From a bacterium (GTDB taxonomy: Bacteria > Armatimonadota > JACIXR01), in the NCBI GenBank assembly GCA_014360495.1, contig JACIXR010000007.1, forward strand, positions 108,501-172,500: a stretch of 64,000 bases of DNA, written 5' to 3'. Below the pieces are notes generated by a model. The model searched no databases, was not told the DNA's origin, and saw only the letters and a list, made by a program, of their open reading frames with translations. A program made the translations under genes and the position numbers. Shown piece by piece: positions 2,357 to 5,637 of this stretch. The first letter of the stretch is position 1, and every line of letters begins with the position of its first letter.

Positions 2357-2935
2357 TCACCCTCTCTTGAATTCTACCTCATAGATGATTGAGTATTGGG
2401 GTCCTTGTGGGAGGAGGATGCTTCGCATAAGCGTCATCTTCTCCGCCATCATCTCGCCTATGTGAACATCGCCTACCTCGCCCATAAGCTTCGTCAATTG
2501 TCCCAGATTCCTGGGGGAACGCACCCTCCCCAATGTCAGATGAAAGGAGAAGGGCTTCTCAGGAGGTATTCCAATCTCCCTAATTCCTGTCTCCAAATCC
2601 TCCGCTATTTTGGAAAGGGAATCTCCTTCTCCACCAATCCAAATGACCCTTGGACGCTTCAAATCAGGGAACGCACCCACCCCCTTGAAAACAAGCCTTT
2701 GCGGGCTAAACCTCCCCGCCACATCCTCCATCAATCTCTTCACTCTTTCAACCTTAGCCTCTTCTATCTCCCCTAAGAAGCGAAGCGTTATATGAAGGTT
2801 TTCCCTCTCCACCCATTTTACATCAGCATTCGCCTTCCTCAATCTATTCTGAATCTCAACCGCCTTCTCCTTTACCTCCTCGGAAAGGAGAACCGCTATG
2901 AAGCATCTTATCTTTTGGGATGTCTTATCAGCCAT
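2357..2935 (-). CDS. thpR: RNA 2',3'-cyclic phosphodiesterase (ThpR/LigT, 2H family)
   Basis: Members of this 2H phosphoesterase family open 2',3'-cyclic phosphates at RNA ends. The protein has 192 residues and carries both catalytic HxTx motifs: HITLRFLG in the N-terminal half and HLTLGRVR in the C-terminal half, with the FIAV-LLSEEV opening typical of the family. It overlaps the 3' end of cinA by 28 bp and is probably co-translated with it. The sulfatase, cinA and thpR genes read as one minus-strand unit, and thpR is followed by about 300 bp before recA. The cinA-thpR-recA neighbourhood is common in bacteria. Confidence 0.93.
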   Translation of the reverse strand: MADKTSQKIRCFIAVLLSEEVKEKAVEIQNRLRKANADVKWVERENLHITLRFLGEIEEAKVERVKRLMEDVAGRFSPQRLVFKGVGAFPDLKRPRVIWIGGEGDSLSKIAEDLETGIREIGIPPEKPFSFHLTLGRVRSPRNLGQLTKLMGEVGDVHIGEMMAEKMTLMRSILLPQGPQYSIIYEVEFKRG

Positions 2936-4152
2936 CTTCTCACCATATCCAAAGCGGTTTGTGAGGAGCGCCAGCGAACCATCTCTCTATCCCCAGGGAA
3001 TATATTCCTTTGGCAAATCGTCTCCTCGGGAGTTGCCAGCGCTATATAAACCAAGCCAACGGGTTTCTCAGGCGTCCCGCCAGTGGGACCAGCTATCCCA
3101 GTTATTCCCACTCCCAAATCCGCTTTTATCACTCTTCTCGCTCCCTCAGCCATCTGCCTCGCCACTTGCTCGCTCACCGCTCCATATCTCTTCAAATCTT
3201 CCTCATTCACCCCTAAAACATCCCTCTTAACCTCGTTAGCATAAGATATCACCCCCCCGAGAAAATAATCCGAGCTTCCCGATATCTTCGTTATCCTATA
3301 GCCCAAAAGCCCGCCAGTGCAGGACTCAGCAACCGCCAATGTCAACCCCCTTTCCCTCAACATCCTCCCCACTACCTCTTCCAATTCCTCCTCGTCAACC
3401 CCATATATATCCTCCCCAAGCCTCTCCCTCACCTTCCTCTCATACTCCTCCACCATCTTCTTCGCCGATTCCTCATCCCCCTTTGCTGTTATTACGAGAT
3501 GAACCTCTCCCGTTTTCGCAAAAGGAGCGAGGGATGGATGACCTTGAGGAGCCATCAAATCTTGCAATGCCTCCTCAACATAGGATTCCGGTCTCCCCAC
3601 AACCCTCAATGTTTTATGGATTATCACATCGCCGGGATTCTTCTCCCTCAAATATGGTTTCACCACCCCTTCAACCATTGGGATGAGCTCGGAGGGTGGT
3701 CCGGGAAGGGCTATGATTATCTTATCGTCTTTCTCCAAGATGAAGCCGGGGGCGGTGCCTACCTTGTTTTCAATAGGGGCAGCCCCCTCCGGAAGATAAG
3801 CCTGCTTCAAATTTATCTCAGCCATCCTTACTCCCCTTCGCCTGAAGAACTCCCTTATCTTCTCCGCAAGCTCCTCTTTGAAAACCAAGGAAATTCCCAA
3901 GGCTTCGCAAATTGCCTCCCTCGTCAAGTCGTCGCTCGTTGGTCCGAGCCCTCCCACTGTTATCACCACATCACAACGAGAAAGAGCCCCTCTTAACACA
4001 TCCACTATTTCCTCCAAACTATCTACAACCGCTGACTTCCTCAACACTGTTATACCGCATTCCATAAGGATTCTTCCCAAATAGGCAGAGTTCGTATCTA
4101 TTGTCCTTCCAGAGAGTATCTCGCTCCCGATGGAGACTATCTCCGCCTTCAT
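2908..4152 (-). CDS. cinA: CinA family protein: MoaB-like domain plus nicotinamide-nucleotide amidase
   Basis: CinA proteins deamidate nicotinamide mononucleotide through the C-terminal domain and carry an N-terminal COG1058 (MoaB/MogA-like) domain associated with ADP-ribose pyrophosphatase activity. The 414-residue protein begins MKAEIVSIGSEILSGRTIDTN; the N-terminal domain shows VGGLGPTSDDLTREA and ALPGPPSEL, and the amidase domain shows AESCTGGLLGYRITKISGS and GVGITGIAGPTGG. A longer frame starting at 4194 exists. The ATG at 4152 is chosen because AAGGAGG lies 5 bp before it and the family begins there. The ATG shares one base with the sulfatase stop (TGATG), so translation is probably coupled. 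Confidence 0.95.
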   Translation of the reverse strand: MKAEIVSIGSEILSGRTIDTNSAYLGRILMECGITVLRKSAVVDSLEEIVDVLRGALSRCDVVITVGGLGPTSDDLTREAICEALGISLVFKEELAEKIREFFRRRGVRMAEINLKQAYLPEGAAPIENKVGTAPGFILEKDDKIIIALPGPPSELIPMVEGVVKPYLREKNPGDVIIHKTLRVVGRPESYVEEALQDLMAPQGHPSLAPFAKTGEVHLVITAKGDEESAKKMVEEYERKVRERLGEDIYGVDEEELEEVVGRMLRERGLTLAVAESCTGGLLGYRITKISGSSDYFLGGVISYANEVKRDVLGVNEEDLKRYGAVSEQVARQMAEGARRVIKADLGVGITGIAGPTGGTPEKPVGLVYIALATPEETICQRNIFPGDREMVRWRSSQTALDMVRRWLIRHPKR

Positions 4153-5534
4153 CACAACCTCCTTTGCTGAATGTATTCCTCCTTCGTATCCCATTCCCTA
4201 AGATACGCGATATATTTTTCAAAAAGCTCCTCCGCTTTGGCTCTGTAGTCATCTATTACATTTATTTCCTCATTGGGGTCAGAGGGAAGGTGATAGAGCT
4301 CGGGATGCATATCTCCCGCTCCTACGATGAGAGCCCATACGCCATCTGTTATCGTGCTTGGCTTTAGCCTCCAAGCATACTTAGCCCAATTATAGGGATT
4401 GAGGGAGACCCTCTCCTCCGCGGCTGGTCCATGTATTATCGCCCAAGATGAAACAGCGATTTCTCTTCCCTTTTCCTTTCCTTCAATTATCGGGAGAAGC
4501 GATTTTCCCTGAACGGTTTGGGGAATCTCAACTCCGGCGAGCTCCAAGATTGTTGGCATCAAATCGGGAGGCTGAGTCAGGGCGTCTACTTTAAGATGTT
4601 TCCCTTGAGGGAAGCGAATGAACAAGGGAATCTCTCTCACCTCACGATAAAGCTTCGTTATCTTCCCCACCAAATTATGCTCGCCCAGATAGAATCCGTG
4701 GTCGGTTGTAAAGACAATGACCGTATTATCCAAAAGCCCCAAATCCTCAATCTTACCAAGCAACTTCCCTATCCATTTATCAACCATCGTCGCTTCCCCA
4801 GAATATAGGGCACGCATATGCTTCAATTCCTCCTTCGTCAGATAGTCCGCCGGACCATAAACGGGATAGATTACCTCTTCGCCTTTATAATCCGGGTCGT
4901 AGAGGTCTACATACCACTTTGGAGGGTCCCATGGCTCGTGAGGGTCAAAGGTATCAATATAGAGGAAGAATTTCCCATCTCTATAATTCTCCTCAAGCCA
5001 GTGGATGGCTTCAATCATAGTTTGGGCGCAGAAATAATCCTCCTCATATTTCCTATGATGGACATTGCGAAGATATTGGGTCACCGTTCTCGTTGTATCC
5101 CTTAGTTTCTCAGGTGAGCAGGGGAGTTTGACATCCTTTGGGGCAGTGCGATATCTATCGTTCTCCTGCCCTCTTATCCAGGTCCATGCGGAAAATCCCC
5201 TCGCGTAGTTGTAGCCCTGATTCATAAGATGGGGAGTATCTACGATGAACATCGTTGTATAGCCGGCTGACGTAAGCAGTTGGGAGAGGACGATTTCCTC
5301 TTGAGATAAGGGAGCCCAGTCGGTGTAGGTGAAGGTGAATTTGCCGGTGAAAAGGTCCCGTCGGTTGGGGATGGTGGGGAATGAGGCAGTGAAATGTTTC
5401 ATAAATACAACCGATTCCTTAGCGAGCTTATCCAAGTTGGGGGTTTGCGTTTTGAGGGAACGATTTCCATAGAAAGAGAGGTTGTCTCTTCTAAATGTAT
5501 CGGAGACGATAACGATAAAGTTTAAATCCTTCAT
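4152..5534 (-). CDS. Sulfatase-like hydrolase with Thr at the FGly position
   Basis: This is an alkaline-phosphatase-superfamily protein of 460 residues with the sulfatase fold. The metal-site residues near the N-terminus (VIVSDTFRRDNLSFYG, Asp12 and Asp17) and the second metal motif TTDHGFYLGEHNLVGK are present. The position that is Cys or Ser in true FGly sulfatases (C/S-x-P-x-R) is Thr54 in FPTIPNRRDLFTGK, so it cannot form formylglycine in the standard way. It could use Thr directly, as phosphotransferases of this superfamily do. No signal peptide is visible, so a cytoplasmic site is likely. The ATG at 5534 has AAGGAG 9 bp upstream; a TTG at 5540 is too close to that site. The gene is translationally coupled to cinA. 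The substrate is unknown. Confidence 0.85.
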   Translation of the reverse strand: MKDLNFIVIVSDTFRRDNLSFYGNRSLKTQTPNLDKLAKESVVFMKHFTASFPTIPNRRDLFTGKFTFTYTDWAPLSQEEIVLSQLLTSAGYTTMFIVDTPHLMNQGYNYARGFSAWTWIRGQENDRYRTAPKDVKLPCSPEKLRDTTRTVTQYLRNVHHRKYEEDYFCAQTMIEAIHWLEENYRDGKFFLYIDTFDPHEPWDPPKWYVDLYDPDYKGEEVIYPVYGPADYLTKEELKHMRALYSGEATMVDKWIGKLLGKIEDLGLLDNTVIVFTTDHGFYLGEHNLVGKITKLYREVREIPLFIRFPQGKHLKVDALTQPPDLMPTILELAGVEIPQTVQGKSLLPIIEGKEKGREIAVSSWAIIHGPAAEERVSLNPYNWAKYAWRLKPSTITDGVWALIVGAGDMHPELYHLPSDPNEEINVIDDYRAKAEELFEKYIAYLREWDTKEEYIQQRRL

Positions 5535-5637
5535 AACCAATCACTCCTTTATATTGTTTTTAAGATTTTACAACTATTAACTTTTAGAGGGCAAGCTTTT
5601 TAGGTTTTAAGAGTGGTTTGAAAATTAACGGTTTTAT

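Follow-up and report, generated by a model that had tools for sequence, protein, structure and literature searches.

A sulfatase-fold protein of an Armatimonadota bacterium with a conserved threonine at the formylglycine position

One gene of the window, the 64,000-nucleotide stretch of DNA analysed here, encodes a sulfatase-fold protein in which Thr54 stands where formylglycine (FGly) sulfatases carry Cys or Ser, and in alignments Thr at this nucleophile position is fixed among the nearest relatives. Members of this Thr clade are probably single-metal phosphoesterases or phosphotransferases with a phospho-Thr intermediate. For the window protein itself, analogy with known enzymes makes the most likely class a phosphodiesterase, phosphonate monoesterase or phosphotransferase, at somewhat better than even chances. 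The original prediction had held such a phosphotransferase or phosphodiesterase activity to be conceivable; with Thr fixed in the relatives and the remaining active site kept, it now appears to be the best available reading.

The gene and its active-site residues

The features of the locus are listed here, "rows" being those of the main-tree alignment described in the next section.

4152 to 5534, minus strand: Thr-type sulfatase-fold gene, stop included, 460 aa (open reading frame, profile match and AlphaFold2 model)
5373 to 5375, minus strand: Thr54 codon ACC, predicted nucleophile, FGly position (sequence and conservation)
5499 to 5501, minus strand: Asp12 codon, predicted metal ligand (119/119 Thr rows, 9/9 Cys rows)
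5361 to 5363, minus strand: Arg58 codon, the Arg of T-x-P-x-R (119/119 Thr rows)
4938 to 4940, minus strand: His199 codon, within FDPHEPWD (119/119 Thr rows)
4698 to 4703, minus strand: Asp278-His279 codons, predicted metal ligands, with the His of phosphonate monoester hydrolases (119/119 Thr rows; comparison of EfAS with these hydrolases, PMC12421950)
4662 to 4664, minus strand: Lys291 codon (119/119 Thr rows)
5544 to 5550, minus strand: Shine-Dalgarno-like AAAGGAG upstream of the ATG (sequence)
2908 to 4152, minus strand: cinA with a fused C-terminal PncC (NMN amidase) domain (open reading frame and profiles; order kept in three genomes of the genus)
2357 to 2935, minus strand: thpR, RNA 2',3'-cyclic phosphodiesterase (profile matches and gene order)

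As read from the sequence, the Thr-type frame starts with ATG at 5534, with AAAGGAG in front, and the earliest possible start in the list of open reading frames is a TTG at 5540. Because the frame opens merely two codons before the ATG, a signal peptide does not fit, and its absence, claimed from the outset, is borne out. The same holds for two further claims: Thr does occupy the C/S-x-P-x-R position of FGly sulfatases, Thr54 (ACC) lying in FPTIPNRRD, and the metal-site acids and DHG motif are retained, with Asp12, Asp278, His279 and Lys291 all present.

Eight residues (Asp12, Arg58, His199, Asp278, His279, Lys291, Asp99 and Asp252) are invariant in all 119 Thr rows and all 9 Cys rows. The residue following Asp12 is Thr or Ser in Thr rows and Cys rows alike, while position 247 carries Glu in nearly all Thr rows (117 of 119) and in 2 of 9 Cys rows. 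Loss of the canonical nucleophile would suit a catalytically dead or non-enzymatic paralogue, but this reading is highly improbable, given that the remaining active-site residues are invariant throughout the Thr rows and that Thr is kept via four codons (ACG in 50 rows, ACC in 41, ACA in 17 and ACT in 11). Since all four ACN codons are in use, it is the residue, not the DNA, that is under conservation.

Threonine in the relatives and cysteine in a sister clade

The original prediction called for an alignment of homologues, and two sets of relatives were compared. Within the window's phylum, relatives were gathered by plain protein similarity and the best loci kept, giving 51 aligned rows including the query; Thr is found in 42 of these, Cys in 8 and Ser in 1 (query counted). 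The 40 rows with scores higher than any Cys or Ser row all have Thr, the top Cys scoring no more than 226 bits. The second set comes from GTDB contigs, where of 522 confirmed relatives the best 80 were kept, aligned as 93 rows (the query plus 92 frames of the 80 loci), and all 32 rows scoring above its best Cys row have Thr, no Cys exceeding 301 bits. With the best frame taken per locus, these best 80 of 522 give Thr in 76, Cys in 3 (L085, L111 and L120) and no letter in 1.

It is this score ranking, not the share of Thr, that provides the unbiased statement. The shares in the GTDB-contig rows (Thr 85 of 93, Cys 6, without a letter 2, from the best 80 of 522 relatives) and in the main-tree rows (Thr 119 of 129, Cys 9, Ser 1) are no census, because the scan was biased to Thr: its query alignment consisted entirely of hand-picked Thr rows, and FDPHEPW, one of the two patterns used, ends in a W that 115 of 119 Thr rows have but none of the 9 Cys rows. 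The 20-row query alignment consists of Thr rows by choice and is thus no evidence on Thr conservation. The main-tree rows are those left after removal of seven distant rows (5 Cys, 2 Thr) from a 136-row tree, with 121 Thr, 14 Cys and 1 Ser, in which the window protein falls within a 66-row set (SH-aLRT 95) where every row is Thr. Thr members span Bathyarchaeota, Brockarchaeota, Caldivirga, Thermoproteales, Lokiarchaeota, Calescamantes, Planctomycetota, Zipacnadia, Poribacteria, Chloroflexota and others.

The idea that an ordinary FGly sulfatase with Cys homologues acquired Thr54 recently, by a local substitution, has next to no chance of being correct. No point in its support was found, and within the sets compared it is refuted by the ranking (Thr in all of the top 40 and top 32 rows) and by the trees, in which Cys appears in a sister clade and among distant paralogues.

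The sister clade is best seen in a plasmid collection, where 496 had a match, 30 homologue loci were listed and 8 of these were examined. Seven of the eight have Cys in the motif P-C-M-P-A-R, from rhizobial and related, haloarchaeal and deinococcal hosts, and the remaining one (L160, Martelella) has Thr. All seven Cys proteins are annotated "sulfatase" and keep Asp99, RGQE or RGHE, and FDPHEP or FDVHEP. This Cys-x-P-x-R clade (L161-L167 and L030-L034, for example) shares Asp99, RGQE/RGHE, FDPHEP or FDVHEP, DHG and Lys with the Thr clade, but has Cys in place of Thr at the nucleophile position, and FGly is therefore possible there. Sulfur or maturation genes lie near two of the seven Cys plasmid loci, in the form of an FGE-family gene (L162) or of cysD, cysN and a sulfotransferase, and sugar ABC transporters occur near Cys-type plasmid homologues. 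One signature, at the level of sequence, holds both FGly-capable and Thr forms. It is conceivable, though unlikely, that a widespread lineage has swapped FGly and plain Thr inside a single subfamily, with the substrate pocket unchanged, and acts on the same or similar substrates with and without FGly, its Thr members then including an FGly-independent sulfatase or a dual sulfate/phosphate enzyme.

In a tree of 65 hand-picked rows, from which the Ser row L028 and the near-copy L165 were omitted, 13 sister-clade Cys rows are nested in Thr rows, with SH-aLRT 98 for the fork holding both. Such nesting would mean that Cys was regained or that Thr was gained twice. A single Thr clade is not rejected by the AU test (p 0.498), the tree constrained to it being 0.87 log units higher. 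The 136-row tree, in which long branches meet, requires four nucleophile changes.

Fold, family models and FGly maturation

The window protein matches Pfam PF00884 (Sulfatase) with E 4.5e-42 and 144.8 bits against a cut-off of 25, and its C-terminal part matches SGSH_C (E 1.8e-13). This profile and the matches of the predicted fold make it a member of the alkaline phosphatase superfamily. Narrower models do not claim it: none of six NCBIfam matches attains its curated cut-off, the best being arylsulfatase PRK13759 (167.9 bits versus 481), with PehA (144.8 versus 900), choline-sulfatase (106.6 versus 433.45), Mn arylsulfatase (90.6 versus 850) and LtaS (24.9 versus 970) among the others. At the first place of C/S-x-P-x-R, where FGly (S1) sulfatases have Cys or Ser, the protein has Thr54.

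An AlphaFold2 model built on a 69-sequence alignment (the window protein plus 68 rows from loci of the GTDB scan) has a mean pLDDT of 91 and a pTM of 0.93, residues 371-410 being less certain (block means 54-69). A helix spans residues 54 to 63 in the model, which would place Thr54 at a helix N-terminus. Foldseek ranks the phosphonate monoester hydrolase (PMH) 4uph first (E 2.6e-28), with PMHs and sulfatases intermixed below, and in the 50 entries listed by VIA-align (Z 31.7-36.7) the ten top rows are all sulfatases (34.7-36.7), the best PMH reaching 34.0. The 50 rows listed by Foldseek and by VIA-align include no phosphoethanolamine transferase. Two sequence searches of the PDB each gave the GlcNAc-6-sulfatase 5g2v as top match, PMHs coming second in one and under two further sulfatases in the other. 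Neither the fold nor overall similarity distinguishes sulfatase from PMH chemistry.

FGly can probably be made in the window's cell, because its genome has one FGE-family match (a candidate FGE, at profile level), and on contig 10 two Cys-type sulfatases, one of them immediately followed by an anSME above cut-off. The FGE family (PF03781) was found in 37 of 41 genomes of the phylum and in 27 of the 29 with a relative; the two of these 29 that lack PF03781, G037 and G039, carry an anSME above cut-off, and their Thr proteins are 59 and 54% identical. Eleven further genomes with relatives, mostly archaeal and of completeness not given, were chosen by hand from the best 80 of 522 loci. A profile search of these found PF03781 missing in 10 of 11, and both PF03781 and an above-cut-off anSME missing in 9 of 11, the exceptions being G298 (PF03781 and anSME) and G300 (anSME alone). 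In each of the 11, radical-SAM proteins match the anSME model more weakly, under its cut-off, and several of these genomes carry additional PF00884 proteins with Thr, some with Cys (28 loci examined). The clade occurs partly in genomes where FGly machinery went undetected. It had been argued that the enzyme could not be matured in the usual way, and the alignments agree: FGly is not to be expected where Thr54 is kept in the nearest relatives. If Thr were oxidised, the product would be a ketone rather than FGly (PMC5066984).

The occurrence of Thr in Pfam Sulfatase proteins has been published before: Barbeyron et al. noted it in 30 of 59 seed sequences of PF00884 and pointed to false annotation propagated by the Pfam profile (PMC5066984). 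Other Thr proteins of PF00884 (with T-G-P-G-F or T-Q-P-S-F, for example) share Thr at the nucleophile position but, among the loci examined, are without the Arg of T-x-P-x-R and without the FDPHEPW signature. A description of the T-x-P-x-R Thr clade was not found in the open-access literature searched, and what appears to be new is a clade that keeps the signature Pro and Arg, has a Cys sister of the same signature, and spans bacteria and archaea. Because its closest bacterial and archaeal relatives keep Thr, the label "sulfatase" is probably wrong for the window protein. Other clade proteins may be misnamed as well, the Thr-type protein on the Martelella plasmid (one annotated record) being called "sulfatase", and the numbers of sulfatases counted in archaea, Poribacteria or Chloroflexota may be too high. 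With two nucleophiles in one sequence signature, the Thr clade and its Cys sister lend themselves as a pair to asking what an enzyme gains from formylglycine, and members from genomes without detected FGly machinery offer a direct test of whether the active site works unmodified.

Candidate chemistry and gene neighbourhood

The PMHs (SulfAtlas S1_0; RlPMH 2vqr, BcPMH 2w8s and ArPMH 4uph) resemble the window protein in fold, first Asp, Asp-His pair, Lys and His ligand, and Asp278, His279 and Lys291 align by sequence onto the DHG...GK of 2w8s and 2vqr. Their residue set is present as Asp12, Asp278, His279, His199 and Lys291, with two replacements: the Gln next to the first Asp of 2w8s and 2vqr gives way to Thr or Ser in the Thr clade, and the nucleophile, FGly in PMHs (PMC5066984), is Thr. 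EfAS binds its metal through D20, C61/FGly, D311 and H312; it has in common with PMHs the His next to the second Asp, where classical arylsulfatases have Asn (PMC12421950). MCR-1, EptC, LptA and LtaS use a Thr nucleophile. MCR-1 binds one zinc through phospho-Thr285, Glu246, Asp465 and His466 (PMC5031297), a single Glu-Thr-Asp-His site that resembles the Thr clade by residue order alone. In SPAP, Thr acts on phosphate monoesters with two zincs (PMC3145672). Because the Thr enzymes MCR-1 and SPAP of this superfamily act on phosphorus (PMC5031297, PMC3145672), phosphorus chemistry is favoured for Thr54 as well. The PMH at the head of the Foldseek ranking points the same way, as do the 9 of 11 chosen genomes in which neither PF03781 nor an above-cut-off anSME was found.

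We infer a bound metal, a nucleophilic role for Thr54, phosphoryl chemistry and a cytosolic location. The protein would be a cytosolic member of the alkaline phosphatase superfamily with unmodified Thr54 in place of formylglycine and with one divalent ion (Mn, Zn or similar) bound by Asp12, Asp278, His279 and Thr54. Thr54 would attack phosphorus, the substrate being a phosphodiester, a phosphonate monoester or a small organic ester related to these, with Arg58, His199 and Lys291 serving in holding and protonation, and either water or an alcohol acceptor would then resolve the phospho-Thr intermediate. The FGly route works by hemiacetal breakdown, and with plain Thr this route is closed. The role would then lie in organic-ester catabolism rather than in the cleavage of sulfate esters.

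Transfer to an alcohol acceptor, as in the phosphoethanolamine transferases and LtaS, in place of hydrolysis would claim a small part of the probability assigned to phosphorus chemistry. The known transferases are membrane-anchored and extracytoplasmic, whereas no signal peptide fits the window protein, which also lies far under the cut-offs of both LtaS (24.9 versus 970 bits) and YejM (42 versus 825 bits). Matches of the Thr clade to these family models are weak only. Pointing towards a transferase are matches with E of at most 1e-5, from 14 of 69 members to the LtaS model and from 14 of 69 to the YejM model, and a ligand order that is the same as in MCR-1 (PMC5031297). Two upstream genes are conserved in six Poribacteria loci, and in one of these, L074, the gene adjoining the Thr-type gene is an O-antigen ligase, which would also suit a transferase.

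The main rival to phosphorus chemistry is an FGly-independent sulfatase, in which Thr54 attacks sulfur and water cleaves the sulfo-Thr ester. The nearest PDB sequences, sulfatases mixed with PMHs and a sulfatase on top, fit this reading, as do the Asp99, RGQE/RGHE and FDPHEP/FDVHEP shared with the Cys sister clade and the sulfur genes near one Thr-type and one Cys-type relative. A choline sulfatase with unmodified Cys still turns over sulfate, with a kcat of 0.27 per s (PMC6189696). We nevertheless consider it unlikely: the literature examined yielded no sulfatase acting through unmodified Thr, Barbeyron et al. advise that TXNXE Thr proteins not be taken as functional sulfatases without experiments (PMC5066984), and the Thr nucleophiles of MCR-1 and SPAP act on phosphorus. 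Several observations also weigh against the phosphoester reading, namely the first place of sulfatases in the PDB sequence and VIA-align rankings, the sulfur genes near a few relatives, the turnover by unmodified choline sulfatase, the frequency of FGE in the window's phylum, and the sub-cut-off radical-SAM matches in all 11 chosen genomes.

The gene had been described as translationally coupled to cinA, an NMN amidase gene and thpR. The overlaps are real: the TGA stop and the ATG of cinA share one base (TGATG, A at 4152), this ATG is preceded by AAAGGAGG at 4158-4165, and the end of cinA overlaps the thpR frame by 28 bp. What had been listed as an NMN amidase gene is part of the cinA frame, namely its C-terminal domain (PF02464, TIGR00199 by profile search). 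The order of Thr-type gene, cinA and thpR, with overlapping stops and starts, recurs in the three genomes of the genus that were compared (the window, L135 and L136), and the upstream side varies among them, being recR, chorismate mutase-prephenate dehydratase or an S6-like gene by reading of the sequence. Elsewhere, among 101 clustered loci of uneven length, cinA is found at one further locus, L145, where it is not adjacent; PAPS reductase and APS kinase lie near the Thr-type gene there. With the linkage confined to three congeneric genomes it was dropped as a clue to function, and a nucleotide-related substrate, as once suggested, is left unsupported.

The neighbour scan covered 107 of 136 operon-like neighbours, those omitted being from the window, L135, L136, L145, L150, L075 and L077-L080, together with individual neighbours, short or on the second strand, of L061, L082, L088, L094 and L130. 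No family in the Pfam scan is matched by more than 5 of the 107, and twenty single neighbours scanned separately, some outside the 136, show no common theme. The commonest families among the 107 are GFO/IDH/MocA (5) and epimerases, MFS and ABC permeases, and Uma2 (4 each), a mix that hints at small-molecule catabolism but at nothing more specific.

A residue possibly linked to the nucleophile position

In the alignment that holds both the Thr family, whose members carry T-x-P-x-R at the nucleophile position, and its Cys-type sister clade (Cys-x-P-x-R), Glu247 in the numbering of the 460-residue window protein is present in 117 of the 119 Thr rows, but in only 2 of the 9 Cys rows. From this distribution, residue 247 may be a partner of the nucleophile change. 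One relative, at locus L028, has Ser at the nucleophile position (P-S-V-P-C-R) and sits on a long branch in the tree.

Gene neighbourhoods of Thr-type members

Clustering of loci showed that in six Poribacteria loci (L074, L075, L077-L080) the Thr-type gene and two upstream genes are conserved together, and that a third gene accompanies it in five of the six. At L074, Pfam matches were to an O-antigen ligase (Wzy_C) in one of these three conserved genes and to OmpA in another, while the Pfam scan gave no match for the remaining one.

Tandem arrangements also occur (coordinates here and below are those of each locus). Three consecutive sulfatase-like genes at L118 (1394-5561) have nucleophiles in the order Thr, Cys, Thr, and are followed by a sugar-type ABC transporter. 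In Caldivirga (L057, 7992-10794) two Thr types form a tandem pair, one with T-x-P-x-R and the other with T-H-P-S-F, which lacks the Arg.

Cys-type sisters on plasmids

On a Sinorhizobium medicae plasmid (L167, 1-3578 and 5992-7599) the Cys-type sister gene is accompanied by sugar ABC transporter genes, with cysD, cysN and a sulfotransferase upstream; the group is possibly a sulfate make-and-break cluster. A gene annotated as a formylglycine-generating enzyme family protein lies close to the Cys-type sister on a Chelativorans plasmid (L162, 3963-4979 and 6001-7596), as does a tripartite tricarboxylate transporter. On plasmid 3 of Deinococcus deserti (L166, 4637-5671), the Cys-type sister gene adjoins a plasmid-borne recA.
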